From Owenia fusiformis (taxonomy: Eukaryota; Annelida; Polychaeta; Sabellida; Oweniidae): a stretch of 64,000 nt of DNA. The notes below the pieces were generated by a model. It was given only the letters and a program-made list of their open reading frames with translations, did not search any database and had not been told where the DNA came from. Of the stretch, positions 23,277 to 63,796 are shown in pieces. A program made the position numbers and the translations under genes. The stretch covers positions 28,172,425-28,236,424 of the forward strand of contig CAIIXF020000010.1 in NCBI GenBank assembly GCA_903813345.2, given 5' to 3'. Position 1 is the stretch's first letter. Every line of letters begins with the position of its first letter.

Positions 23277-23840
23277 TTAAGTGAATACGCCGCTGGTTAA
23301 TGTCTTACATTTGTACATACAACCAAACCCCCCCCCCCTCACACCTTCACCCTGAAATGTGTACACATTTGCAGGCTTGGATAACATGGGAGTCAATAGG
23401 ATATTAAGAAACTTCCAAAGTATTCAATTGAGAGATTGTTCATCTTTACCAGTGATTCAGTATTTGTATATTAGCACACATTAACAGCTAGATCTATCTT
23501 CATAATACCATCACAGTAAGGCAATAATAACATAACATGTTTACAGGATATGCAGGTTATATATTTCCATTGTTATTAGTAGCTACTTTTAAAGCCTCAC
23601 TGCATAACACACCCCTCACTGAATTGAAACCCTATTGAAAACACTGAATCAACCCCATGATGTCATACAACCAACTATTTCAGATTGGCCCTATTTTCCA
23701 TGATTTCATAGCATTTCATCTGCCTGCCATCGACTCTATATTCTAAACCACATTTTTCATCTTAAAAACCATCTAAAATAAGCCAAATAAATATATGTAA
23801 GCCTTTATAAAATTGTATAAGGTAAAAGCATGGTACTTAC

Positions 23841-23988
23841 CGACTCTATGTATGAGCGTAGTGGGGGCCAAGTCTACTTGCCATGCAGCAACAGTCTTTG
23901 ATAATGTACACAAGATGGAGATTGAGAGTATAAAATCCCACATTTGCTGCCACCGTATAATATCACTCCGTGTTGATGATTTAATCAT
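23841..23988 (-). CDS. Semaphorin, first coding exon with signal peptide
   Basis: The minus-strand ATG at 23988 opens 49 codons plus one base, ending at a strong donor (GAGTCG|GTAAGT). The acceptor TTTTCAG at 24006-24007 lies 17 bases before the ATG, so transcription starts further right in a non-coding exon. Residues 17-35 form a hydrophobic signal-peptide core (MWDFILSISILCTLSKTVAA), followed by WQVDLAPTTLIHRV. The W-x-x-D-x-x-P spacing is common just ahead of the sema domain. Phase 1 at the donor joins GTC G to AA CCT of the exon at 818-914, giving ...HRVEPDSEHRFLGN. A nearer Met (residue 16) could be the true start. The assignment rests on this splice match and on the sema motif of the next exon. 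Confidence 0.8.
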
Positions 23989-26652
23989 TGTTACTGTCTG
24001 TATTCCTGAAAACATAAATGTATTAATATAAGATGATGTATGATCTTGTCTCATCCAGTCTCCTAAGGAGATAATGTTTCTCCTGGGGGAGTTATTGATT
24101 TCTCCTTCAGTATTAAAGATGTTCCAAAGAATATTCCTCTAAGTTAAGAAAAAACAATTGCCGTACAGCATATGCAATGATGGACCAAATATCTAAACAA
24201 CAGAATATTGACTCTTCCTTTACAAAGACTGAAACCTAGCAACTAATAGCCCTGAATCACATAAAATGTTTTCTCCTGCTTATCCCAGACACTTTTCCTA
24301 TACCATTAAATTAATGTCCTAATGTTCAAGTTTTTCCTTATAATTTGGAATCTCCTCAACATACTTTATTTCCTGGTTCTTCTTTGCTATTCTATTGATG
24401 TTAGTGTTTTAAAACATAAGCACAATTCATTTATCCACAGAATTCCCAGACCTTTAGCTTGTTATTCTGTCTCATCTACTGTCCAGGTTATAATTATGCT
24501 GTCTCCAGGTAAGAAAATACAGTCTGATTGTGCTTTTATTATAGAGACTCACCTGTATGAAGACAATCTCTAATTATCTTATTCCCTTGCAAAAATTCCG
24601 CAATCAACTTCTTAATTTTTTACCCTTTCTCGAAAAAACTTAATCTATTAAGGTTTTTGATTTTTGTAATTACAACCAAGACTGGGTATAACAGGCCTTT
24701 TGCATATTTTATCATATTTTCTCACTTTGTCATAATTGACAAAAAGAAAAGTTTGATTTTTGTGTAAGGGTGCAGGGAAATGAATGGTAAAAGAGCTGTC
24801 ATTATAAATAATTAGCAATTATGCAAGATGTGACAAGAGATTAATTCTTTGAGCATCTACCTAATAAGTGAAACTGTGTTTGTCCCACAATCAATGATAA
24901 TTAAGACAAATTGTTACATGACCAAAAAGTTAATTAGTCAATTTCTTAGTTCAGACATGCATTTTCTCCAATCATTAAGTTGACACGTCTTGGTTACCTT
25001 GGTGACACTTTCTTGATTGCCAGAAAAGTCAGACTCAGACATGAGAAATTGCAACTGATGCGTCTCTTTTACAATTCATTCAAATTTGAGACTAGTATTG
25101 TTCCAAGCCTTTTTTGCAGAACTCCCCCCCCCCTCCAATATACATACCCTGTAGACAAGACGGGACACTTGATACAAAGGCGGATTGGCAACCACAATGC
25201 TCTAATAACAGCCACCTTCAAAACTTTCTTAAAAGAAAACAGAACTGCTAGAGATAATTGGCCATTGAAGATAACAATGTCTCCCATCCCCAGGCTCCTA
25301 GACTAGTAGACCATTATATGGGCCATTTCTCTAATGCTCTCTCTAATATTGAACAACTCCCATGTAATGTACATTATGGGCTCTAACATTGAATAATGGC
25401 TATATAACCACTAACAGTAGAATGGCCATTTTGCAGGTGTTTGTCTCCAGGGTATGGGTATTGTCTTCACATGTTTTGGTTCAACTTTTAATTCTTACAT
25501 CCATCACGTCTTTATTTATACAAAGGTACCCCAACTTCTAAATAGAGTGGATTATGAGTTGACTACATTTAAGTTGAAAATGCAATGAGATTTTATACTT
25601 TATGGTTTAATATTTGGTTAAACCAAATATCACGCAAAAAATGACAAATGGACTTATATTCCAATTGTTGATATGAATATTATTTTCTCGACCCAAAGTG
25701 ACACTAACACATACATGTGACAGGATTATGTTAATTTAGAAAAGTGGGCACACTTAACATTCATTGCAACTTCAAGCTAGGAGATCATTCAATATAACAG
25801 CATGAATATTAAGAATTAAAAAACAAACATATCCAAAACTGTTTATCACCATATCCCTAGATTGCATTTTGGCTGATCTCGGGGCAAAGGTTAGCATTAG
25901 GCACAGGTTTCCCACTGGAGCACACTACAGGCATAATTCGCTAATTGTAATAATTAGACCTAATTAGAGAACACTGTTAGCATTGATTGTACTTTCAAGG
26001 CTGTGTTGTTTGGAAGGATAATATTGCTTGATTGGACCATCTTTAGAAAGAAATAGCTGGAGTCTTGTATCAAGCCCCTGGGGGTGTTTGTGCACTTGTT
26101 TACACCCCCCTCCCTCCCCCAGCACCCCTCAGGTCTCCACTCTTATTGAGACTTGCTATCAAGCCAACTGCTACCCTTTACTTCAAAAGGTCAAATGAGC
26201 ATCATCTTGTTGCATATCTTGAGTTGCTATATTTACAGTCTAACCCATAGGCCCAGGAAAAGGCTCAATTAGAAATGCCTTTGTAGGGCTATGCTTTTGA
26301 CTGTGATGTTACCTCATTAATGATGGCCATGAAATTGCATGCAAGCAAATCATAACTGAATTGCCTAAACCAAGTACCTATTCAATATTCATCCTTCTTC
26401 AAAGGACTTCATTTATGCTTAAATTCATATATTCATATACTTGTAAAATACCCTTGCAGCAAGGATGTTCAATATTGTGCACGGTAAACTATAGAATATA
26501 AAGACAATTGGGTGCTTCCTATTCACTCAATACACTCAGGGCCTATCTGTATACTAGATTAAGATAATCCACAGCCAGGTGTCTCCAGTTGGCCCTCATT
26601 TACCTGTCCTCAGGTGTGTGGCCCTCTACTTTGTGATGTAAATGAGAGTTGC

Positions 26653-44348: not shown

Positions 44349-46662
44349 CAATTATGGGTCACGACTGAAAAAATATTTAAGAAAAACAACCTCTTAACAC
44401 ACAAGTTATGACAATCTGTGTAATATGCAACGATATACCTGCCAAACGTCTCAATCCCGAATTTCAAGCTGTGCGTTCACTGGCCCCTTAGATGCAACTT
44501 GTCGCCCCCGTACCGCGATCAACATGTTCAGTGACAGTTAGGTGATGGCCTTATCAAGGGAAACATATATAAGTGATTGGTGACACAGATTTATAGCTAT
44601 TAATTTGGTAGATGGTTATTAGAAATAAGGAGACGCAGCGACCGTTCTCCATATGTCCGTCTATCAATCTCAAACTCCAATCATTATCCATAAATCATAA
44701 GTGATTACTTTAGTCTACAGTATGCTACATAAAATACCATCATTTTCATTTTGACCAGAGACATATCTGTTTTGACAGATAGAAAAACTGTGAAGGCTCA
44801 CACTGAAAGAAATTAGAGTTCTTCTGATAGATGCTTGATAATAGATGTGTATCTTTTCATTATCACGTTTGTTTCAAGTAGAAAGGAGGTCAAAAACGTT
44901 TTTATCGATATTTATATATTGGTGTAGGCTATTGCTATATTCCCTCTTGCCCTGATTTCTGAATAGATGGCGTGTCTAAGAATATCAGGTATGGCAATGT
45001 GTTTTTCTGAGCTTACCTCTTGAGTAGCAGCAAACATAAACACCAAACGTGTTGTTGTCTCCATAGTAATTAACCATATCTGTGTTACCAATTACCAACT
45101 CACTCACAAATCTTCCCGCCATTTCTAAGCAGACAACAATATGTAGCCAGGAGGGGGTGTAGGGTTATTAGGCTTCAAAAACACTACAACACGGTCACCA
45201 TACATAGGCGTAGCCTGGAGAGGGTGTGATCGCACCCCCCCCCCCATAACCAATGAGAATATGATCATTAGATAGAGGAAGAAAATAGCTTCAAAATGCT
45301 TTTTATGTGTAGCTTCTAGCGCAATTTTGAAGGAAGCTACATCAATTTTTGTAAAATTCAAAACAAACCTTAATCTTTTTGGGGTTGCTTGTGCCATGAT
45401 CACACCCCCTGACTAAAAACCGAATTTTTTGGGCAATCGCAGCGCCCCCCCCCCCCTCCCTCCCCCCTAACTGAAAGCTGGATGATAAATGAGGATGGTG
45501 GACAACAAACAAGAAAGGTAGCATAAATCAATCAAACAACGTCTTCCATACCCTAATAACGCCTTAATGAATACCTCCATTCGATTACCCCAAAGTTTCA
45601 ATGATACCCTACTAGCCAAGAAGATGAAGCCCCTTTCTAATCCTCGAATTTGCCCCCTATCTTGACTCTAGAGGCAAAATTGAGGTAAGACTAAGAGAAA
45701 GCAGTAGGGGTCGTTTGGAACAATATGACTCGACTCAGACAGAGACACGATCCACTCAACCTCTGGTAGAAATAAACGAGAAACACGTGTGTCCCAGGTG
45801 ATACATTAACCCATATATCATCCCCTATTTCGACCCAGGGATCCAGTATTGTTTTAATTGGCCCCATAGTGACTTTAATAGCTGACACGTCATTTAATCC
45901 TTGGTTTATCAACGAATGTGAGCTTCCCAACACACATGTACACTCCCTCCAAAAGTGTGGCAACCGAAAGCTGTTCTTATTTGGCAATTCTAACACATAT
46001 ATCAAAGTCATAGTTTGCCGACTTATTGTAATTGAGAAACAAATAAAATGCCTATATTATTTTGATTCAGCATAAACAATTTTTAACATTTTACAGGGAG
46101 TAGGTTTCAGTTTCCAAACTTAGCGAAGCGGGTGTATAAAATAAAGATAGTTCACCAAATGTACCTTTGGCAAATATACTGTGTTACTGCTTACTGCACT
46201 TTTTGACAATGATTAAATATATAATATTGATGCATGAATTATCGTTTAAACAGAAAACTGTACAGCAAACATCGCTCTTTTTGAATATCTAGTCGCGCTT
46301 TCAAAAAGGTAAACCTAAAATATTTTTAAGTGGTAGGGAAGCCTTGAAACAACATTCCTATGAAATCACTTCCTACTATCATATGTATCGTAGCATTCCT
46401 GAGTGAAAGATGCAAGTAGTAGAGTTTAGTAGTATTTACGTCATCTGATCCAATAGAACTGAACTGTAGTAGTGCTACATGTATATTAACAGAGTGATCA
46501 GAAGAACTGAAAGTGTTGTACCGCATACACACAATGCGACTTTTTAGATCTTAGCACGGTGTTCACTATACAGAATAACCGGTTTAGCTTGACACGGTTT
46601 AAAGGGTGACGCATATCGTTTAGCAAATCGAACGCTCGTTTCTGGTGTTGCTCACCGTTTAG

Positions 46663-46670
46663 TATAAAAG
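46663..46670 (+). promoter_or_regulatory. TATA-box core promoter candidate
   Basis: TATAAAAG in a GC-richer context (AGTATAAAAGGCCCGATCCC), with start-site-like sequence about 30 bases on (AATACTCAAGG). It precedes the short frame at 46925-47161 by about 260 bases. Two repeated CGTTTAG words lie just upstream. Confidence 0.4.
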
Positions 46671-46924
46671 GCCCGATCCCGGAATAATACTCAAGGGTTC
46701 ACAGGTTCGAGGTCGTTGTGTCAACACCTCTAACTGTTATATAGCATAAGTATATTATAGATCGTCACACATTTATAAAAGGGTGATTTTTATTTTGACA
46801 AATCAATTCCACATTTATGGTTGAAGTTTCAGGATCTTCTATTTGTGTATAATAAGGAAAAATTGGCATCTAAATTTCCCCATAACGTAATAGCACACAG
46901 CTTGGCATATGAAATATCCTACAA

Positions 46925-47164
46925 ATGAAACAAAGCAAGACAAACCGGTTTCTAATACAAGGATTTATATTGGCTGTTGTACATGTATTCTTTGAACGCA
47001 ATCACTCTTTGGATAACGTTTTCAAAATCATTATAAACGGATTACTTTATCTCAAAGACAATTTCAATAAACTGGATTTTACAGAACTCCCCTTATTTCT
47101 TAAAAATGGACTGATCCAGTTGATTCGCCTGGAGCCGCCATATTGTTTTTATACGGGATGCTAA
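46925..47164 (+). CDS. Hypothetical 79-residue protein
   Basis: A true ATG opens 79 codons (MKQSKTNRFLIQGFILAVVH...) ending FYTGC. Amphipathic and hydrophobic stretches alternate, with no clear signal peptide and no known domain. It lies downstream of a TATA-type promoter. It could be a small gene or a chance frame. Confidence 0.2.
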   Translation: MKQSKTNRFLIQGFILAVVHVFFERNHSLDNVFKIIINGLLYLKDNFNKLDFTELPLFLKNGLIQLIRLEPPYCFYTGC

Positions 47165-47542
47165 TCGGAACCCTTTAAGAAGATTTTAATGTGAAGCATA
47201 CACATTAAAAATGAAAGCTGAACACAATATATCTCATACCCACAATATGACTGCCACCCATATCCACACGGTGACCGAAAGAGATGGACACACGGTACAT
47301 TGACCAATAAAGACTAAAATGGTTTACCTGATTAAGAGAACAGAGCTAGACGTGAACATTTTACTTACAGAATAACCACTGAGCTCACACAAGGTACAAC
47401 ATACACGCACAGAGTAGCCAATAGAGCTGAATTTGATGCATCGCATACACACAAAATAGCATAGAGAGTTGCACGAGAAAGAAGCTAATAGTATTTTAGC
47501 CTTGCATGAACTGAGCTGGTCATCGCAAGGCCCGTAGCCAAT

Positions 47543-47623
47543 ATCCTGCGCGCAGAGTCTAACGAGTTGCAAAGTACAGAACACTCTCTTTAAAGAAGTA
47601 AAGTCGAACGAATGCAAAGGATA
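47543..47623 (-). mobile_element. 81-bp mini-transposon, variant ATCCT...AGGATA ends
   Basis: This is the same family as at 42517-42597, but both termini carry the same change (ATCCT and AGGAT), so the inverted repeat is kept. It is flanked by GTAGCCAA (47534-47541 and 47624-47631). Confidence 0.8.
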
Positions 47624-47986
47624 GTAGCCAAGGGGGTTCCGAATCAATATCATGCATTTTTTCACAATTCTCAGCATTTTTCAAGTGATTTTGAGCCTAC
47701 TTTGTCAACTGTTAAACTGACCCCCCTACCCCTTGGCAAAAGATGGTTACGACGTCGGTAATTTCTCTAAACAATCGAGTTCACAATTGACGACGTTTTT
47801 CTAGCTGCAAGTTAAGAAAACCCATTCTGATTTATCAGAGTCCCTCTTTACCTAACGCTTTTGAGAGAACTATTCCAAAAGGATAGTAAAGGCTGTGGAT
47901 CCCACAATGAAAACAAGGCATTAACATGACAAAATGTCACCACCTAGTTGCTCACAATATTATGAGTTCAAACTTAATATAAGTCA

Positions 47987-50525
47987 GATTTGAATTTCTG
48001 AGAACTTGTAAAGTCAAATTTGAACTTCTGAAAAGATGTAGATGATTTTGAAAAAAAAATTTGGTCAATTTGAAGCAAGTTGAAAACAGACCTTTTTGAC
48101 CTTTTTTGACCTTGAGAAGGTCATTAAAGGTCAAATGTCAAATCTAAAGTCAGATTTGAATTTCTGAGAACATGTAGTTGATTTTGAAAAAAAAATTGTC
48201 AATTTGAAGCAAGTTGAAAAAAGACCTTTTTGACCTTTTTTGACCTTGAGAAGGTCAAATGTCAAATCTAAAGTCAAATCTAAAGTCATATTTGAATTTC
48301 TGAGAACATGTAGAATGTAGATGATTTTGAAAAAAAATTTAGTCAATTTGAAGCAAGATGAAAAAATACCTTTTTGACCTTTTTTGACATTGAGAAGGTC
48401 ATTGAAGGTCAAATGTCAAATCTAAAGTCAGATTTGAATTTCTGAGAACATGTAGATGATTTTGAAAAAAAATTTTAGTCAATTTGAAGCAAGTTGAAAA
48501 CAGACCTTTTTTGACCTTGAGAAGGTCAAATGTCAAATCTAAAGTCAGAATTGAATTTCTGAGAACATGTAGATGATTTTGAAAAAAATTTTTAGTCAAT
48601 TTGAAGCAAGTTGAAAAAAGATCTTTTTGACCTTTTTTGACTTTGAGAAGGTCATTGAAGGTCAAATGTCAAATCTTAAGTCAAATCTAAAGTCAGATTT
48701 GAATTTCTGAGAACACGAAGATGATTTTGAAAATTTTTTTTAGTCAATTTGAAGCAAGTTGAAAACAGACCTTTTTGACCTTGAGAAGGTCATTGAAGGT
48801 CAAATGTCAAATCTTAAGTCAAATCTTAAGTCAGATTTGAATTTCTGAGAACACGTAGATGATTTTGAAAAAAAAATTTAGTCAATTTGAAGCAAGTTGA
48901 AAACAGACCTTTTTTGACCTTGAGAAGGTCATTGAAGGTCAAATGTCAAATCTAAAGTCAGATTTGAATTTCTGAGAACATGTAGATGATTCTGAAAAAA
49001 AAATTTAGTCAATTTGAAGCAAGTTGAAAACAGACCTTTTTGACCTTTTTTGACCTTGAGAAGGTCATTAAAGGTCAAATGTCAAATCTAAAGTCAGATT
49101 TGAATTTCTGAGAACATGTAGATGATTTTGAAAAAAAAATAGTCAATTTGAAGCAAGTTGAAAAAAGACCTTTTTGACCTTTTTTGACCTTGAGAAGGTC
49201 AAATGTCAAATCTAAAGTCAAATCTAAAGTCATATTTGAATTTCTGAGAACATGTAGAATGTAGATGATTTTGAAAAAAAATATAGTCAATTTGAAGCAA
49301 GATGAAAAAATACCTTTTTGACCTTTTTTGACATTGAGAAGGTCATTGAAGGTCAAATGTCAAATCTAAAGTCAGATTTGAATTTCTGAGAACATGTAGA
49401 TGATTTTGAAAAAATTTTTTAGTCAATTTGAAGCAACTTGAAAACAGACCTTTTTTGACCTTGAGAAGGTCAAATGTCAAATCTAAAGTCAGATTTGAAT
49501 TTCTGAGAACATGTAGATGATTTTGAAAAAATTTTTTAGTCAATTTGAAGCAAGTTGAAAAAAGACCTTGTTGACCTTTTTTGACTTTGAGAAGGTCATT
49601 GAAGGTCAAATGTCAAATCTTAAGTCAAATCTAAAGTCAGATTTGAATTTCTGAGAACACGAAGATGATTTTGAAATTTTTTTTTAGTCAATTTGAAGCA
49701 AGTTGAAAACAGACCTTTTTGACCTTGAGAAGGTCATTGAAGGTCAAATGTCAAATCTTAAGTCAAATCTTAAGTCAGATTTGAATTTCTGAGAACACGT
49801 AGATGATTTTGAAAAAAAAATTTAGTCAATTTGAAGCAAGTTGAAAACAGACCTTTTTTTACCTTGAGAAGGTCATTGAAGGTCAAATGTCAAATCTAAA
49901 GTCAGATTTGAATTTCTGAGAACATGTAGATGATTTTGAAAAAAAAATTTAGTCAATTTGAAGCAAGTTGAAAAAAGACCTTTTTGACCTTTTTTGACTT
50001 TGAGAAGGTCATTGAAGGTCAAATGTCAAATCTTAAGTCAAATCTAAAGTCAGATTTGAATTTCTGAGAACACGTAGATGATTTTGAAAATTTTTTTAGT
50101 CAATTTGAAGCAAGTTGAAAACAGACCTTTTTGACCTTTTTTGACCTTGAGAAGGTCAAATGTCAAATCTTAAGTCAAATCTTAAGTCAGATTTGAATTT
50201 CTGAGAACACGTAGATGATTTTGAAAAAAAAATTTAGTCAATTTGAAGCAAGTTGAAAACAGACCTTTTTGACCTTTTTTGACCTTGAGAAGGTCATTGA
50301 AGGTCAAATGTCAAATCTAAAGTCAGATTTGAAGGTCAAATGTCAAATCTAAAGTCAGATTTGAATTTCTGAGAACATGTAGATGATTTTGAAAAAAAAT
50401 TTAGTCATTGTGAAGCAAGTTGAAAAAAGACCTTTTTGACCTTGAGAAGGTCATTGAAGGTCAAAAGTCAAATCTAAAGTCAGATTTGAACTTCTGAGAA
50501 CATGTAGATGATTTAGAAAAAAATT
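47987..50525. repeat. Tandem array, ~134-bp monomers in a 944-bp higher-order repeat
   Basis: About 19 monomers begin TCAGATTTGAATTTCTGAGA and contain GATGATTTTGAAAAAAA, TCAATTTGAAGCAAGTTGAA and one or two TGACCTT words before GAGAAGGTCA. Monomer lengths vary from 118 to 149 bp, but the order of lengths repeats: 48151-49094 and 49095-50038 match monomer for monomer at a constant 944-bp offset. Open frames on the minus strand across it are by-products of the repeat. Confidence 0.92.
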
Positions 50526-50581
50526 GAAGTCAGTCTAAACAGTATTTGTTAAGTTATAGGAAGTTGTAAGAAATTGTTACA

Positions 50582-50648
50582 GACGCCGGACGCCAACCGC
50601 CGGACGCCAACCGCCGGACACCAACCACCAACCGCCGGACGCCGTCGC
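50582..50648. repeat. CGCCGGACGCC short tandem repeat
   Basis: CCGCCGGACGCCAA repeats about four times with small changes. It is GC-rich between AT-rich neighbours and lies just inside the right hairpin of the array element. Confidence 0.85.
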
Positions 50649-50919
50649 AAAAAAAACGGAGACCATAACAATATGTCACCACTTTTGGTGGTGACATAAA
50701 AACCTATTTCATTTGTCCTTTAACAATGTGCAGCGGAGTGATGCATACCAGTGGGTGATATTATGTAACACTTACCTAAATGTCCTCACAAATATGTCAT
50801 GTTTTGGTTAAACGAGAGATTATAGTTACATGAAACAAAATCATTAAAGTAAACAATATGTAACAACATTTGAAGATTAATTTCATCTGCAACATAAATT
50901 TGCTGTTCTTTACGATAAG

Positions 50920-50925
50920 TTTATT
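50920..50925 (-). terminator. Poly(A) signal candidate of the multicopper oxidase
   Basis: AATAAA on the minus strand, about 400 bases after the stop codon at 51327-51329. Other AT-rich hexamers nearby could also serve. Confidence 0.35.
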
Positions 50926-51326
50926 GTTATGAACCATAATATTGTAATTGCAACATTTTAGTAAGATTTTGTTCATAAGTGAAAGAATAACTTATATTTT
51001 TACGTATAGCTATACAGTACGCTTCATAAGTTATACGTTATACGGGAATAATAAACATGAGCTATAAGTGAGTTGCGAAATCTCTCTAATAATAGGGAGC
51101 TTGCAATGTTTTTCACAACCTAAACGGAAAATATTTAATCGATGCATTTGTATGGGCAATTGGTCATACGTATAAGTTGGCGTTTCGATTTTATATGCAA
51201 GCTTAAACTCCCTAGTGTTCCATTCTGGCGCATTGTTATCAGCTTTCAATCTCCATATAACTCCATTACATTTCCATAGAGCTAAGTTAACGTTCATAAG
51301 TGGTATTGTCGATCCCATGGTTACGT

Positions 51327-51445
51327 TCAGACTGTTGAACTCTTCTGTCTCATAAACAGACAGAATATGGTGACGAACTGCAGCAGAATTATACCCAGCA
51401 ATGCACCAACTACGCCCCAGAATATACCCAATGTGTAGGCAGACT
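51327..51445 (-). CDS. Multicopper oxidase, last exon (membrane anchor)
   Basis: The acceptor TTTTCAG precedes AGTCTGCC. Two bases complete a Glu codon with the last base of exon 1. The exon encodes SAYTLGIFWGVVGALLGIIL, continues LQFVTIFCLF, then MRQKSSTV and a TGA stop. This is one transmembrane helix followed by a short basic tail, so the enzyme would be a type I membrane protein with the catalytic part outside the cell. The frame is only visible through the splice, because unspliced reading stops earlier. Confidence 0.85.
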
Positions 51446-51565
51446 CTGAAAATACATGTATTTTCAATGTAAAGTGTAAGGGCTTTCCTCATTCATTTAC
51501 TCAAATTATAAACAAACCCCAATTGCCCCAAACTTATCTTTATCACTTAGTTTATGCCTACTTAC
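51446..51565 (-). other. 120-bp intron of the multicopper oxidase
   Basis: Donor AAAAG|GTAAGT, acceptor TTTTCAG|AG, phase 1. It is the only intron in the coding region. Confidence 0.85.
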
Positions 51566-53591
51566 CTTTTACTGGTATCTGTGCTCCATTGATTTCTCCT
51601 TCGGTCGATTCGGTCGATTCCTCCTCCCCCTCGTTCGTTTGGTCGAATAGGAAGTTATTGCATTTGGGAAAGTTCTTCGGAGATTCAGGGTGCTTTTCAG
51701 GTGCCTCGTCGAAAAACATCGCCATCCCGTCCATGTTGTGAAGCTCGATATGACAATGCATGAACCACGATCCAGGGTTGTTCGCCTTTATCCGTACAAC
51801 AGCATAGCCGCCAGTAGGCACGATGATAGTATCCTTCCGCGGTGGATTGACAAGATTTAGTCCAGGGATGTTATCACCGATCCATGACGAATCACTCCAC
51901 TCGGCATCATTACAGAAGTTCAATTGTTCATCTCCTAAACAATTGACGTCTGCGTTATCACGGATGTGATTTCCTGTCGTGCTGTTGTAGTCCGCATAGC
52001 CCATTTTGAGGACGTAGAAACTGTGCCCGTGCAAGTGAACAGGGTGCGACCAGCCTTTGCCTCTTCCAAGGTTTAAAAACACCATCTGGATAGTGTCGTC
52101 GTATTTCAGTTCCAAGTTACTTGAGCACGCACATATCTTGTCCAACCCACACGAACCAGAGTCACATCCAGTCTCCAGTTCGCTTCGCTGAGAATAAGCA
52201 GAAACCGGTGGACTCTTGAATGCTCGGCCGTTTATGGATCCCGGGGTCCATTTTGTTCCAGGGAATGCGAAATTTAGGAAATGGTTTTGGAACTTGCCAG
52301 GAGTTGAAGCTGGGGGTGGTGTATCAACTTTGTTTTGCAATTGATCAAATCTCAAACATTCGGTAAATGAATCGGACGGGTAGTAGGTAAACGGACAGTT
52401 GATAACAAGGCACTTTTTGTCGACACTGCATTTGGATCTATTACTTGTAATAATGCTGTCCCAATCGGCATTATAGGGAGCATCTCCATAATGCAACACT
52501 GCTTCGAAAATATGGTTCTTTACACCAACTTCAATGGTTTCCCCGCGGATCCAGTAATTTCAAACAGTCGCATCCGTGGTAATCTCAAAATCAAACCTCT
52601 CCCCTGGGTTGATAATGAACGACTCGGCCACAACTGGTTTTACGTCATATCCATCCGAAGCAATAATTGTCAACATATGAGCATCGACTGATACTCTAAA
52701 AGGGTAAAGCGAACCTGCAGCGATCACTCTAAACTTGTATTTTGTACCAGGGGTAACGTTGAATACTTCCAAAGGTGCTCCATTGTGTTCATTTGTTGCT
52801 GGGTCGTACCATCTGCCCTTGCCGTTCACAAGACCAGCGTGGAACTGAAACGTGCTGAAGAAGGCGCCATCAAGAGATTTCGTATTTTTAAATTTTGACC
52901 TACCATGATACAAACCGTAAACCATCTTAAGGTGACCAGTATCTGAGTCAAAGTCGTGGTTCCAATCTGAAATTGCCATCGTGAATTCTTCAGTTGGTGC
53001 TTGATTTTCCTTTGGACGCTCGTGTATGATAAATGCTCCATATAAACCGTTTGTACGTTGCACCCCGATGTGGGAGTGATACCAATATGTCCCTTTATTG
53101 CCTACATTGAATTTATAGGTAAACGTATGCCCTGGGCCTATCGGGCATTGTGTGATGTAGGCAACGCCATCCATGAAAGGGGTCCCTTTTTGGTGCAGCC
53201 CGTGCCAATGTATGGTAAGACCGTGGCTCTTAAGCTTGTTGTGGACATGAACGACAATATTTTGATTCTCGTAGACTTCGATTGCTGGCCCCGGGAGTGA
53301 ACCGTTCACCACCATCACTATCCTGTTTCTTTGCCAAAAGCCATCTGCCTGTATAATGCCCTCTGGGGAGACAGGCTCGCTGTTCTCGGGGTCAGTTACA
53401 TCGTAAGGATAAAACTCCCCTTTATACGGCCAGACTAGGGTCTTGCCTTTCAACATCGTAAGTGCCTCTTCTACTTCCAACCAAAACTCACATTGCTCGG
53501 CTTCTGGTGAGCAAGCTGGCTTTGCGTCTGTACAAGAGAACAATGCTACCAATAGAAGAAACGTTTTCAGCCAAACAACCTCCATTTTCAT
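51566..53591 (-). CDS. Laccase-like multicopper oxidase, main exon, in-frame TGA
   Basis: One 2026-bp exon encodes a signal peptide (MKMEVVWLKTFLLLVALFSC) and three cupredoxin domains. Copper ligands are all present: HWHG (H128, H130), YHSH (H172, H174), HPVHLHGH (H516, H519, H521) and HCHIELHNMDGM (H612, C613, H614, H618). The axial residue is Met (about 623), as in lower-potential laccases. Such enzymes oxidise phenols, catechols or metals and reduce O2 to water. Codon 344 is TGA (52560-52562), between FEITTDATV and NYWIRGETIEV, at a spot where homologues run straight through. The frame then continues 331 codons to a good donor. An acid/Ser-rich linker leads to the anchor exon; about 714 residues in all. 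TTTTTTCCAG just before the ATG suggests a 5' UTR intron. GC is clearly above the surroundings. Confidence 0.95.
52560..52562 (-). other. In-frame TGA codon within the oxidase
   Basis: The sequence reads ACT GTT TGA AAT TAC TGG, i.e. TV-stop-NYW. Frame and family motifs are intact on both sides. Candidate causes are a sequencing or assembly error, a segregating nonsense allele, a young pseudogene, or recoding. I see no convincing SECIS-like structure after the gene by eye. Confidence 0.95.
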
Positions 53592-53599
53592 ATCACCTT

Positions 53600-54853
53600 T
53601 TCTGGAAAAAATAGGAACCAGCCATTAATTCAATGGTACATTAATGCGTTAACTGAGGTTCCATCTCGTGGCTTTAATCAATGTAAACGGAGAATTTACA
53701 GTGTTTTGTGGACACAAAGAAAAATATCTCTTACCAAAATTGGTCCTCCGTAAATGAAGTCCAGTTTCATACGAGTCAGTAAACTAAATATCATCAAAAT
53801 GCATATCTCTAACTCAAACATGAATTTCTCGGATTTTCTTTATCAAAAAGATAAACATTTTAATTGTGGATTATTTCATACCCCGGGTTTCATTCAGGTT
53901 AAGGTCTTGTAGAAATACTTTTATTATGTTATAGTTACTTTTGACGTTTTGACATGCCTGTTGACTGAAATTTTATTGATCAAAATACAAAACAATGTAC
54001 AAACAACTCTATGCATGGTTTTTGCATTTCACTGGCTTGTACGTTACATAGCTCGTTGATTTTAAAACCTTTTCTGACCTTTTCATTTATTGAGCCCATT
54101 GGTTTTCATGCTTGTTTTATCTACCTAGAAGCGTTGTTGATTTTATTCCTTTGTTGTCAATGTCAACCCCATAATGCGCAATGAATATTACAGTTTTCAA
54201 GCTTCCGTTTTCAAAATCATTTTTGAAGAGAACCCCACCTCTGGTCAATCAAATGAACGCTATCATGTTACAGCTAATATCTTTAGACCAATTGCAGATA
54301 TGGGAAGATTTTAACCATAATTCCTGCAGAAAGACGCTTTAACGTCCAACTTTAGCTGATTTACGGTTAAAGTTGAATAGGAGTGGAAGTGTATCGTATC
54401 CCACAGAATCGACTTGCTTTGTCAAAGATTGCATATGCAATCCGTATACGGATTAATTGTTAACTTGATTATACTACGAATGGTATTCTGTAGCTTTGGA
54501 TTGGATCATAATTACAATGTTTCAAAAAGATGAAAAATTTAATTCCCATCGCTTTTTTGTAACATAATGTTACAATATAACATAGTAATAATTATATAAT
54601 TAAAATAAGTTTATTGGCCTCTTGAACTCCTACAGGTACATCGAGATATAAGTCCAATAAAGCAAATAACAAATAAAACATGCATGTACATGCATAGCAA
54701 AACATAATAATTACAATCTGATTTTAACAACCACTAAGTAGCATAAAATGATTTCACGTCAATATTGTTTAGCAATTCTTTGGTAATATTATGAACTCTT
54801 TGTAAAATAATCGCCAATTGTTTAATTAATTGCACATCCGCTCGATTACGCTG
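53600..54853. other. Upstream region of the oxidase, no gene seen
   Basis: AT-rich. It should contain the oxidase promoter and 5' UTR exon, but no convincing TATA or exon boundary was found apart from the acceptor just before the ATG. Confidence 0.5.
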
Positions 54854-58937: not shown

Positions 58938-61116
58938 CTGGAAAACAGTTAGAAAAAATTCATGAAAGCTTACAAAATACGGGAAGCCATGGTGTACTAA
59001 GAGTGTACCAGTGACTGTAACATGCGACTTGGTCAGTTCCTAATGGCAGGAGCGTAACCACGATCAAATAGGCGATTGAAGCATTTGATCAAAAAGCGAG
59101 GGAAAATTGAACCAAAGGGAATGTCATGTTGCATCAAAAGGCAACAAAAGGTAAAAATAAATTATTTAATTTTGCCTTATCTATCCTATCTCGTAGCTAG
59201 ATGGAACACCCGGGATGGAACATGTATCCTGTAATTCCTATTGATACGTGTCGCTCCGCTGCACAATCAAACCTCGTTTCGGGTTTAATAGAAACATGAA
59301 GAAACTCAATTTCATTTATTTGGCATCAGTATCCCTATTTACACTACACGCGACATTTCAAGACGTCTTAGCTAAAACGTTTTAGTAAAATCATGTTGAG
59401 TTTACACCACCATTTTCAAGACCGAAATTACGAAAAATGATTGAGTTTACACCTGTTTTTCTAAAACGTCTTAGAGATATGTAGGCATACATGTAAAATG
59501 TAAAAAACAGTTCAACACTGTTTGAAGGATGGTTCAGTCAACATAGCTATTCCTTCCCGCTTTACTTTCTGCTATAAAGAATGCATCGGTTTCAAAAAAA
59601 TATGTCCTAAAGAGAGCATTGTCAAAAGCATGAAAGAGGGCAGGAAGATTTTGTCCATATATTAAGATTATGATATACGCTAGGTGGTGAATTAGTTCTT
59701 CTAGATATTTTTGGATCCCCTTTAACAAAGGGATGAGACAAGAGAAAGGATCACGCTACACATGTAATCAGGAAGTTTCAAATTTTTCGTTCAGCGCAAC
59801 GCATAAAACCGGGCTAAGAGCTCTTAGCTAAAACCGATAGATTTACACTCGCTTGTAAAACGTTTTAACGCTAAGACGTCTTGGCTATGAGTTAAGTCCC
59901 AAAACGTCTTAGCTAAGCGCTCTTAGCCGAGAGCTCTTGAGAAAATCTGGATTTACATTATATTTGTTACAAATGCTCTAAACTTTACCGTGTCAAGGAG
60001 TTCCTCTATTACTTCCAGTCTGCTGGTTATAGAATCCAGTCTTCCATTGGTACACATCATCCTAAAAAGTAGGTGTAATAATAGACTTATAGCCAGACAT
60101 ATAGCCATATTTGTATTTAAAAAACAAGTGCAGATACATGGTTACTTTTTACAGAAAATCTAATTTTCACTAATCAGATGACTTTTGTTGAAATCTCCTT
60201 TTCAGTTTAAAATACTTACTCTTCAGTTGACGTTTTCATCATGTCATAGATACTCTCCTTATGTTCCCGTTTATGCGCGCGCATAAATTCGTCACAGATC
60301 ATATTCTCCCATTCTCTCAGCGACTTTGCATCGTCAGAATTCACCTCTAAAAATCACATCAATGAAGATTTATTTACATTAAAAATCTCACGTTTTGCTT
60401 TCGTCCTTTCTTCACACTTAGCATAATATTGTGATCTTGCATTTTTAATGTCAGTGGCTTAAATGTAACTTGTACAAAGTCGCTCGTATACTAGCGTATC
60501 GTACTGTTTTCATACATTGAAATAAAGTGAATCCAATAAAAAGAGCCAATTTCATCACTTAAACGGCATTTGTCGTTCAGTGCTTGTTTTAGACGAACAT
60601 CGTCTGCTAGTAGTCTTGGCGATTTTCGAGCCCAAACAAAATCCAACCGTAAACTTATACTTAGACATATATTTTGGTACTTGCCAAATTTGTTACTCCT
60701 GCGTTGCCAACATGTTGTCGTCTCTGGGTGTCTGTTACATTTTCCCGCTACAAATCTCATGAGTTGATAAAAGTGTACCAGGATGATAAAAGGTGGCGGC
60801 ACTGGAGGACGGAGTGTGTATTCTCGCACAAAATGATACCATTGGAACTTAGAGACGATATCATGAGACTCACGAATTTTGTTAAAGGTGTAACTGAAAA
60901 GAAACCATGAAAAATGTGTCGGTTATACTGTAAATTACAATTATGTAAGACTGTCACTTCTGAATGGTTACGATATATTAATTTGTGTAGGTTTGCACAA
61001 ACCGTCCAAACCTCCTCCTCTCTACGACGGTAAATTAGTACTTTGAGTATTTGTGAATCTGTGCGAGACCAATACTTCATAAACAATTACATCCTTAGCT
61101 CTGCTCATGATGATGT

Positions 61117-61193
<77 letters not shown>

Positions 61194-63796
61194 TTGACAA
61201 CCATACCTGAACATAGCTATGAGAAGGTTGATCATGAGAACATTAGTGAAGAGCATGTACACCGCCAACATCCAAGGTATGATATATGTGCCTGTCTGAG
61301 TAGGACATTTCAGTTCTGGGATATTACTTGTTCCATTTGAATTGCAGTGATCTCCTCCTAAAGGATGAAAAAGTATGGTATTTAACATTGATGTGAATCT
61401 GTGAATGATGCCAAATTACAAATCTAAATTATTCGTATACAGAACAGATAGCATACAATGTTCCCCAATTAAAAAGAAACAATTTGATATTTTATATGGC
61501 TCGGATTTATTGTCCCGGTCGACGTTCATGTACATGTTGGCGTAATTGGACTTATTGGTCATACACATTTTTGGATCAGGTAAGTACATATACAAGTACA
61601 TATTTTCCAAAGGACAAAACCTAAATTGATATTTTACTTTCTAAATCCTCCAAATCAAGCTCCCCATACATCTGCCAGTATGGCTTCAGAATTATGTGTA
61701 CGAAGAGGTCCCAGCTCAGACTAGGGGCATTTGGGTAGAGAATGGAATGCGAAGATATCCCATATGCTAGCGTGAACACCGATAGTATAATCAGGAAGAA
61801 ACCGACATCGATTATCTGGAAATAAAATTTTAAAATCATGTTTATTACTAATAAAATCGGCACTCTTTCAGTTGCAAAGGAAAAACAGGTCTCATTCTGC
61901 TGAATCATTTTGAATTGACTGGATACTTTTAAATCTTGATTCTTGAAGATGCACATTTTTTATCTGAAATCCTATTCTGATAACTATTAAGAATAATCTA
62001 TTCAAATCTCCAAACCATTTTGTTGATCATGACTATCTTTGGACCCAGTTCGGTGTTCGTGGAACAATTATTCAAGAGGCGAATATAGAAGGTGACCAGG
62101 TCAAAGGCATAGGTAACCCTTGCGGCCTCGAATGTCTTGTTGAACGGGAGAAAACGTAAAACCACGGCGAGGAAGAACAGCCCAATGTTGATGATATCAA
62201 GCCAGTTCCAGCAGTCGCCGAGGTAATGGTAGTGTTTCGAGATTCGGGCCTGGAAAATATTTAGGTGAAAAAACAGTCTTAGGAACTCCAATTTGGTCTC
62301 AGTACTTCCCTTGATAGCTACATTACTTATCATACCTTTTGTAGCATACAAGGTCGCAGCGATCATGTAAAAGGCAAGACTAGATTGACAAGTTATAATT
62401 AACAAGGAAACAAGTTAAAAAAGGGAAAGAGACATCCGGCCTGAAGATGCTATGCTATTAAATTCTAATTTGGTAAATAACAATTGTCTGAGAGACTTTG
62501 ATTTCAATAGCTACATCATAAATAGCCATGGATTTGAGAGGGCGGAGAGATGGGGAGGGAGAATAGGAAGGAAATCTATTTCAATCCACACCTGTCTTAT
62601 TTCCTCTGCTGTAATGGTCACCACCCAAGCTATGATTACTATCTCTAGGTAGCTGCAGGTCGGCTTGAACTGGATCAATAGGAGGTAAGAAAACAGCAGC
62701 AGAAACACTACCTGTGTATACTGCAATGGATACCAAATATATGAATTATTTAAAAAAGTTAGTGTGATGTGGATTATACAAGCATGTAGAATGAAATTCC
62801 AGATGACAGATCCTTCAGTAAAACGATGTCAAATTGTATCCAAATGTTAAATGCGATATGTGTTTCTGCTAAATGCTCTCAAAGCTAAATGGGAAAATGC
62901 TCTCTCAGCTGAATATAGAAAAATGCTCATTAATATCTAATTGATAAATGTTCCCACCTTACAATCTCCCCACGTTTCGTTCAGAGTAATCGACTCGTTC
63001 GGCGGGCCAATGAAAATTTGTCCCTTTCAAATCGATGCATCATGGGAGATATTTATGTATATTACCACGTGAAATCTTATCGCGAATAAGAGTATTGATA
63101 AATGTTCCCAACTTACAAAGTTGTGAATGAATGTTATGTAGGGAGCATTGTAGAAGTAGCTCAGCTTTTCTCTTCGTGTCAGCATAGGCCTGGTAAAAAA
63201 TAAATAAAGCCATTAGTAAAACTACGGCACATGATTTTTAGAATCAGATTCTAAAAAATCCCAAAAGCAAGAGTAATTGATTGGATTGATTTGTCTCCGT
63301 TATGAAATGGTTTGAAGTAACAAGTACATACCTTTGTCGTTCACTGTCGGTGTCATCAGTTCTGGAGTTTTTGTTATCAATTTTATTTGTTGTATTGCCA
63401 TTGATTTCATCTAACTATAAAATACGGTAGTAATAGACATTTGATGGTGTGATCAAGCAAGGTCCAAATGATCAATAATTTCATATTTGGGAAACTAGGC
63501 TATAAGAGTGGGGAATTTACTCTTATATTTGGCAGAACATTTCAAATATTGATTTTAATATGATTGTATGTTGATATTATTTTATTGATCTTCCTTTACC
63601 TCTACTTCCTCATAGGCAACATCTCCACATTTTGTTTCTTTCTGAAAATATATTTGAATGGAATCATTATTACAGATTTGAAATTTGAGCGTTACTTGGG
63701 GTATCTTGTGGCACTATCGTAGACAGAGTGGAATTAAAATGAATTATTTGGTTTATTTACCGGAAATTTAAATGTAGGGTTGCATTCTTCCATCAT
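58815..63796 (-). CDS. TRPM: TRPM-family cation channel, gene-level entry
   Basis: Twelve exons on the minus strand join in phase into 482 codons including the stop: 63761-63796 (tentative), 63600-63641, 63332-63414, 63117-63189, 62592-62720, 62016-62249, 61638-61815, 61207-61357, 60697-60893, 60220-60346, 59989-60061 and 58815-58937. The product holds S1-S6, pore loop (PYWQMYGEL), S6 (YIIPWMLAVYMLFTNVLMIN, then LLIAMF), TRP domain (SYTFNKIRESHDIVSKFQWY) with RPPVPPPFIIL, and a coiled-coil tail. TRPM proteins are tetrameric cation channels of the plasma membrane, normally with a large N-terminal MHR region; that part is not in the window. The pore GE is like TRPM1/3/6/7, while the short coiled-coil tail is like TRPM2/8. 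There is no kinase or NUDT9 domain. Confidence 0.95.
59339..59959. mobile_element. Palindrome-rich repeat in TRPM intron 11
   Basis: TTTACAC words (59339, 59400, 59449, 59853) alternate with self-complementary blocks: AAGACGTCTT (59360 and 59873), CTAAAACGTTTTAG (59372), CTAAGAGCTCTTAG (59814), TAAAACGTTTTA (59856) and an AAGCGCTCTTAG block (59914). The two halves are partly inverted copies of each other. It is probably a degraded foldback transposon. Confidence 0.55.
59989..60061 (-). CDS. TRPM exon 11 (coiled coil, first part)
   Basis: It encodes MMCTNGRLDSITSRLEVIEE and LLDT, with heptad-spaced L/I/V residues. Acceptor TTTTTAG, donor CACG|GTAAAG, phase 0. Confidence 0.85.
60220..60346 (-). 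CDS. TRPM exon 10
   Basis: Acceptor TTTTTAG, donor GAAGA|GTAAGT. It encodes VNSDDAKSLREWENMICDEF and a Lys/Glu-rich helix. This matches the position of the L.WE....Y segment after the TRP domain in TRPM2/8. Confidence 0.85.
60697..60893 (-). CDS. TRPM exon 9 (TRP domain)
   Basis: Acceptor TTTTCAG. The donor is taken as AGGA|GTAACA (phase 1) because it fits the next exon; the open frame runs on past it. The exon encodes SYTFNKIRESHDIVSKFQWY, then HFVREYTLRPPVPPPFIILV. The usual TRPM TRP-box core W-K-F-Q-R reads S-K-F-Q-W here. Confidence 0.85.
61106..61194. repeat. (GAT)n microsatellite, about 29 units
   Basis: Nearly pure trinucleotide repeat in the intron directly after the S6 exon. The poly-His, poly-Ile and poly-Met frames over it are artefacts. 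Confidence 0.95.
61207..61357 (-). CDS. TRPM exon 8 (S6)
   Basis: After a Cys-bearing turret (GDHCNSNGTSNIPELKCPTQ, two Cys, two N-glycosylation-type motifs) comes S6 ending NLLIAMF. Donor TTCAG|GTATGG in phase 2. A long ATC microsatellite starts about 10 bases past the donor. Confidence 0.95.
61638..61815 (-). CDS. TRPM exon 7 (S5 and pore)
   Basis: IIDVGFFLIILSVFTLAYGI is S5, SILYPN follows, and ILKPYWQMYGELDLEDLE is the pore helix and filter. The Glu after Gly in YGEL corresponds to the filter acid of divalent-permeable TRPMs (family knowledge). It ends in phase 1. Confidence 0.95.
62016..62249 (-). CDS. TRPM exon 6 (S3-S4)
   Basis: 78 codons, phase 0. WNWLDIINIGLFFLAVVLRF is S3, YAFDLVTFYIRLL is S4, and LGPKIVMINKM is the S4-S5 linker, all in the TRPM pattern. 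Acceptor TTTCCAG, donor AAATG|GTTTGG (weaker). Confidence 0.95.
62592..62720 (-). CDS. TRPM exon 5 (S1 and start of S2)
   Basis: 43 codons, phase 0 on both sides, acceptor ATTGCAG and donor ACAG|GTGTGG. It encodes VVFLLLFSYLLLI (S1) and IVIIAWVVTITAEEIRQ (S2), the latter with the TRPM-typical EE(I/V)RQ end. Confidence 0.95.
63117..63189 (-). CDS. TRPM exon 4 (pre-S1)
   Basis: Acceptor TTTACCAG, donor CTTT|GTAAGT. It encodes PMLTRREKLSYFYNAPYITF and IHNF. FYNAP is the signature just ahead of S1 in TRPM channels. Confidence 0.9.
63332..63414 (-). CDS. TRPM exon 3
   Basis: Acceptor TTATAG, donor CAAAG|GTATGT. It encodes LDEINGNTTNKIDNKNSRTD, a polar pre-S1 linker, leaving in phase 2. Confidence 0.7.
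63600..63641 (-). CDS. TRPM exon 2
   Basis: Acceptor TTTTCAG, donor GTAGAG|GTAAAG. It encodes KETKCGDVAYEEVE, phase 0 at both sides. It belongs to the linker ahead of S1. Confidence 0.65.
63761..63796 (-). CDS. TRPM exon 1 (tentative, possible start codon)
   Basis: ATGATGG opens MMEECNPTFKFP, ending at donor CCG|GTAAAT in phase 0 with the next exon. An in-frame TAA lies three codons upstream. No good acceptor separates it from the ATG; the only AG (GGAAG|AATGC) lies inside. The second ATG has A at -3 and G at +4, a favourable start context. It is either a start exon of a short channel isoform or an internal exon with a weak acceptor. Confidence 0.4.

Follow-up and report, generated by a model that had tools for sequence, protein, structure and literature searches.

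The window (the whole 64-kb stretch of DNA that was analysed) carries on its minus strand a three-domain multicopper oxidase gene interrupted by an in-frame TGA at codon 344 (52562-52560), inside cupredoxin domain 2, and in this respect the sequence-only reading was borne out. This stop is probably a single, real and recent nonsense substitution, present as a segregating null allele or as a very young pseudogene, and the disabled but otherwise conserved reading frame found here agrees with either. The same data would also fit a sequence error.

The gene runs from an ATG at 53591 to a terminal TGA at 51329-51327 and comprises 714 codons plus the terminal stop, in two coding exons separated by one coding intron of 120 nt. 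The coding part of exon 1 (51567-53591, with base 51566 also being part of the codon that the intron interrupts) encodes a hydrophobic N-terminus and cupredoxin domains 1-3 (PF07732, PF00394 and PF07731). It is followed by the GT-AG intron (51446-51565), with a GTAAGT donor and a TTTTCAG acceptor, and by the coding part of exon 2 (51327-51445), which provides a C-terminal hydrophobic segment, the putative membrane anchor, and the terminal TGA. By eye, two further signals could be read on the same strand: shortly before the ATG, TTTTTTCCAG (53602-53611), which may be the 3' splice site of an intron in the 5' UTR, and, some 400 nt past the terminal stop, AATAAA (50920-50925), which may act as a polyadenylation signal. 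A tblastn search of the window (E up to 1) gave no paralogue of the oxidase, as the gene matched itself only. A large tandem array (48009-50524) begins some 0.8 kb past the terminal stop, with a unit of about 136 bp in 17 copies up to 50333 and units of 265 and 403 bp also called, and a G+C-rich unit of 14 bases, CGCCGGACGCCAAC, is repeated about three times at 50584-50626 in a window that is otherwise A+T-rich.

The identity of the protein is supported on both sides of the stop. The part before it matches Pfam PF07732 (1.8e-42) and PF00394 (9.6e-18), while the exon-1 part after it (330 residues), searched alone, matches Cu-oxidase_2, PF07731 (3.6e-32). When the TGA was read as X, all three families were above cut-off and in order, and the PF00394 match (residues 247-370) spanned the stop. 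Four motifs that we take, from knowledge of the family, to bind copper are found at residues 128 (HWHG), 170 (WYHSH), 516 (HPVHLHGH) and 612 (HCHIELHNMDGM), the last two being located past the stop; the copper ligands and splice sites had been called intact, and the copper motifs and GT-AG sites are all present. An intact signal peptide and C-terminal anchor had also been claimed. Hydrophobic stretches do exist at both ends, one at the N-terminus (mean hydropathy 1.73) and the strongest one near the C-terminus (687-705, mean hydropathy 2.63); they are consistent with a putative signal peptide and a putative membrane anchor. Among PDB structures, laccases and ascorbate oxidase matched best. In NCBIfam, all 8 matches, laccase and ascorbate oxidase included, were under the curated cut-offs, and therefore we claim no specific enzyme name. 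Taken from its sequence, the gene is predicted to encode a membrane-anchored multicopper oxidase, laccase/ascorbate-oxidase-like. It has in common with three-domain multicopper oxidases of the laccase/L-ascorbate oxidase type the domain order and the copper motifs, whereas the C-terminal hydrophobic anchor and the in-frame TGA in domain 2 are its own.

On the minus strand, codon 344 is found in the context GCG ACT GTT TGA AAT TAC TGG, with 343 codons open before it and 370 sense codons after it, across the GT-AG intron. The earlier figure of about 330 codons after the stop therefore holds for exon 1 and falls short for the whole frame. The open frame downstream of the TGA is not due to chance, considering that none of 2000 base shuffles of the post-TGA frame was stop-free and that its exon-1 part alone matches Cu-oxidase_2 as described above.

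We then looked at whether the rest of the gene is decayed. Neither a second stop, nor a frameshift, nor a splice defect was seen in the oxidase gene, in agreement with the previous claim that no second disablement is visible. Third-position composition was similar on the two sides, GC3 being 0.472 before the stop and 0.504 after it, both higher than the G+C of the window (0.351). When the query was aligned with four PDB rows (five rows in all), it agreed with them at 37 of the 45 columns that were fully conserved ahead of the stop and at 21 of 24 past it. A profile search of genome contigs matched at least 594 stretches and gave at least 520 relatives, the best 80 of which were kept, all bacterial or archaeal by title and with 23-34% identity; two of them (L033 and L034) were left out, as no HWHG-containing open frame could be located in them, giving 78 prokaryote rows. 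The oxidase protein itself, scanned against the genome contigs and against viral contigs, matched 22 and 4 stretches respectively, none of which tblastn showed to be a relative, and the relatives kept included no animal orthologue. In the alignment with the 78 prokaryote and four PDB rows, where a column was called conserved if at least 90% of its residues were the same, agreement was 25/30 before the stop and 17/17 after it. Therefore, the half past the stop shows no decay, its conserved columns being matched as well as those before the stop.

A neutral model was used as a rough guide to age. Conditional on one or more disablements, the probability that there was just one came to 0.51 or 0.31 for 0.5% divergence, 0.23 or 0.07 for 1%, and 0.04 or 0.002 for 2%, the paired values corresponding to two assumed indel rates and rate variation being ignored. 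The nonsense change, if real, would thus be young. The main rival explanation, a base error in the assembly with the gene intact in the animal, predicts the same picture, as an intact remainder is expected of a working gene; moreover, the site was chosen for its stop, a selection that enriches for errors and for real nonsense changes alike. We consider this error rather unlikely: by our own estimate, a gene this long would have a chance of about 0.8% of carrying a stop created by error, given a nonsense fraction of 3.9% and an assumed rate of one substitution error per 10,000 bases, and the 64-kb window contains no N.

Under a real nonsense substitution at codon 344, translation would end in domain 2. 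The truncated product would be missing domain 3, with HPVHLHGH and HCHIELHNMDGM, two of the four copper motifs, as well as the anchor, and by comparison with the family such an oxidase should be inactive. A stop placed well ahead of an exon junction leads as a rule to nonsense-mediated decay; codon 344 sits 994 nt ahead of the junction, so that decay is expected and the oxidase mRNA is probably a target of it.

Is codon 344 a position where a special residue could be required? Among the 82 distant rows, a residue is present at this column in 81 (the gap being in L056): Gly in 57, Arg in 14, Asp in 3, Gln in 2, and Pro, Asn, Ser, Lys and Glu once each. These counts are not independent, because the 80 relatives kept include 9 Corynebacterium and 5 Brevundimonas, several of the prokaryote rows being near copies of one another; the low identity of these rows also limits their alignment. 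The four PDB rows have Asp, Asp, Glu and Gly, and the YW beside the stop is kept in all four of them and in none of the 78 prokaryote rows. Nine rows show at this column a GxW stretch resembling the domain-3 stretch; in eight of the nine the true domain 3 occupies its proper position in the alignment, and therefore those rows stand, while L035, the ninth, is doubtful. When these nine rows are left out, Gly is found in 48 and Arg in 14 of 73 rows. The column is tolerant of change, with no sign of a redox site, and as it varies among relatives, a nonsense change arising here by chance would be unremarkable. Gly and Arg, the main residues at this column, have codons one base from TGA.

The same column bears on two explanations in which the TGA is decoded as an amino acid. 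Selenocysteine at codon 344, suggested by a TGA codon in an oxidoreductase, is extremely improbable, considering that Cys occurs in 0 of the 82 distant rows and that the Rfam scans listed no SECIS. Rfam contains a SECIS model, which was absent among the 7 and 8 matches (E up to 10) obtained on 49500-53700 and 45000-51500; at gathering score, the whole window gave zero Rfam matches. The sequence-only reading had pointed to around 50.9-51.3 kb as the place to look for a SECIS, and the scan of 49500-53700 listed none. An ad hoc stem scan returned 5 stems, none of them in the 3.3 kb that follow the terminal stop; this negative is weak because the scan had no positive control, and it is the Rfam scans that carry the argument. 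As for a TGA that the organism reads as a sense codon, or that mRNA editing converts to Trp, the open frame speaks for it and nothing else does. Trp, like Cys, is found at this column in 0/82 rows, and the gene, in which TGG encodes Trp 16 times, itself ends in TGA, therefore leaving a reassigned code without support and making this explanation highly improbable.

Readthrough of the TGA would yield two products side by side, a short protein with two domains and the complete membrane-anchored oxidase. The frame past the stop is indeed intact and conserved, and the available text of PMC4132726 presents UGA as the leakiest of the stop codons. The same text gives CUAG after UGA in four efficient mammalian readthrough genes and CARYYA as the other motif tested. 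The gene studied here has in common with the UGA-CUAG genes a UGA and an open frame after it, whereas the bases that follow its stop are AATTAC, with neither CUAG nor CARYYA, and its stop lies inside a catalytic domain. In addition, no stimulating fold was found in the 120 nt after the stop (z -0.08, 84 of 200 shuffles being at least as stable), and a stop inside domain 2 would give a short form without domain 3. We therefore regard readthrough as quite improbable, and even more so its stronger version, a fixed functional leaky stop yielding a secreted two-domain copper-binding fragment and little full-length membrane-anchored oxidase.

Alternative splicing that skips the stop is also highly improbable. 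When sites were filtered by simple consensus (GT[AG][AT]G donors, and [CT]AG acceptors of 60% pyrimidine or more), one in-frame pair, 1182 nt apart, passed; its use would remove approximately residues 34-427, that is, the matched parts of domains 1 and 2 together with HWHG and WYHSH. Three options had been offered for this stop at the outset, and while a recent change and a sequence error fit all the observations, recoding is left without support. No report of an in-frame stop or of recoding in an animal multicopper oxidase appeared in the titles and abstract openings of the literature matches listed.

A recent nonsense change in this oxidase would resemble segregating loss-of-function alleles and young pseudogenes, in which an otherwise normal gene has lost its function in some genomes of a species. 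Gene presence-absence variation has been reported in mussel, and animal genomes can vary much in gene content (PMC7653742, available text); there the gene is absent, whereas here it carries a nonsense change. In the Kumamoto oyster, multicopper oxidase and laccase are among the genes in regions with selection signals (PMC12021676, available text). The available parts of PMC7653742 and PMC12021676 do not treat a stop in such a gene. If real, the change at codon 344 would be one more gene caught at the moment of its loss, and for annotation the locus should then be flagged and not split into two gene models. A wider importance would require a stop that is conserved and read through, which nothing we found supports.

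Elsewhere in the window, we observed on the same strand as the oxidase a segment of a TRPM-type cation channel (61998-62414), with 6co7 as best PDB match (3.7e-13) and a sub-threshold Pfam match to Ion_trans (15.1 bits for a cut-off of 25). Together with the introns, this segment makes an animal origin of the window probable. The next frame on the minus strand (61621-61959) looks channel-like by eye and has no Pfam match. Near the channel segment, a trinucleotide run of about 30 copies of ATG, with 95% matches, occupies 61107-61197. Finally, an open frame on the minus strand at 23773-24138 resembles a Ty5-type Gag family weakly and below threshold (E 0.049), which may be due to chance.
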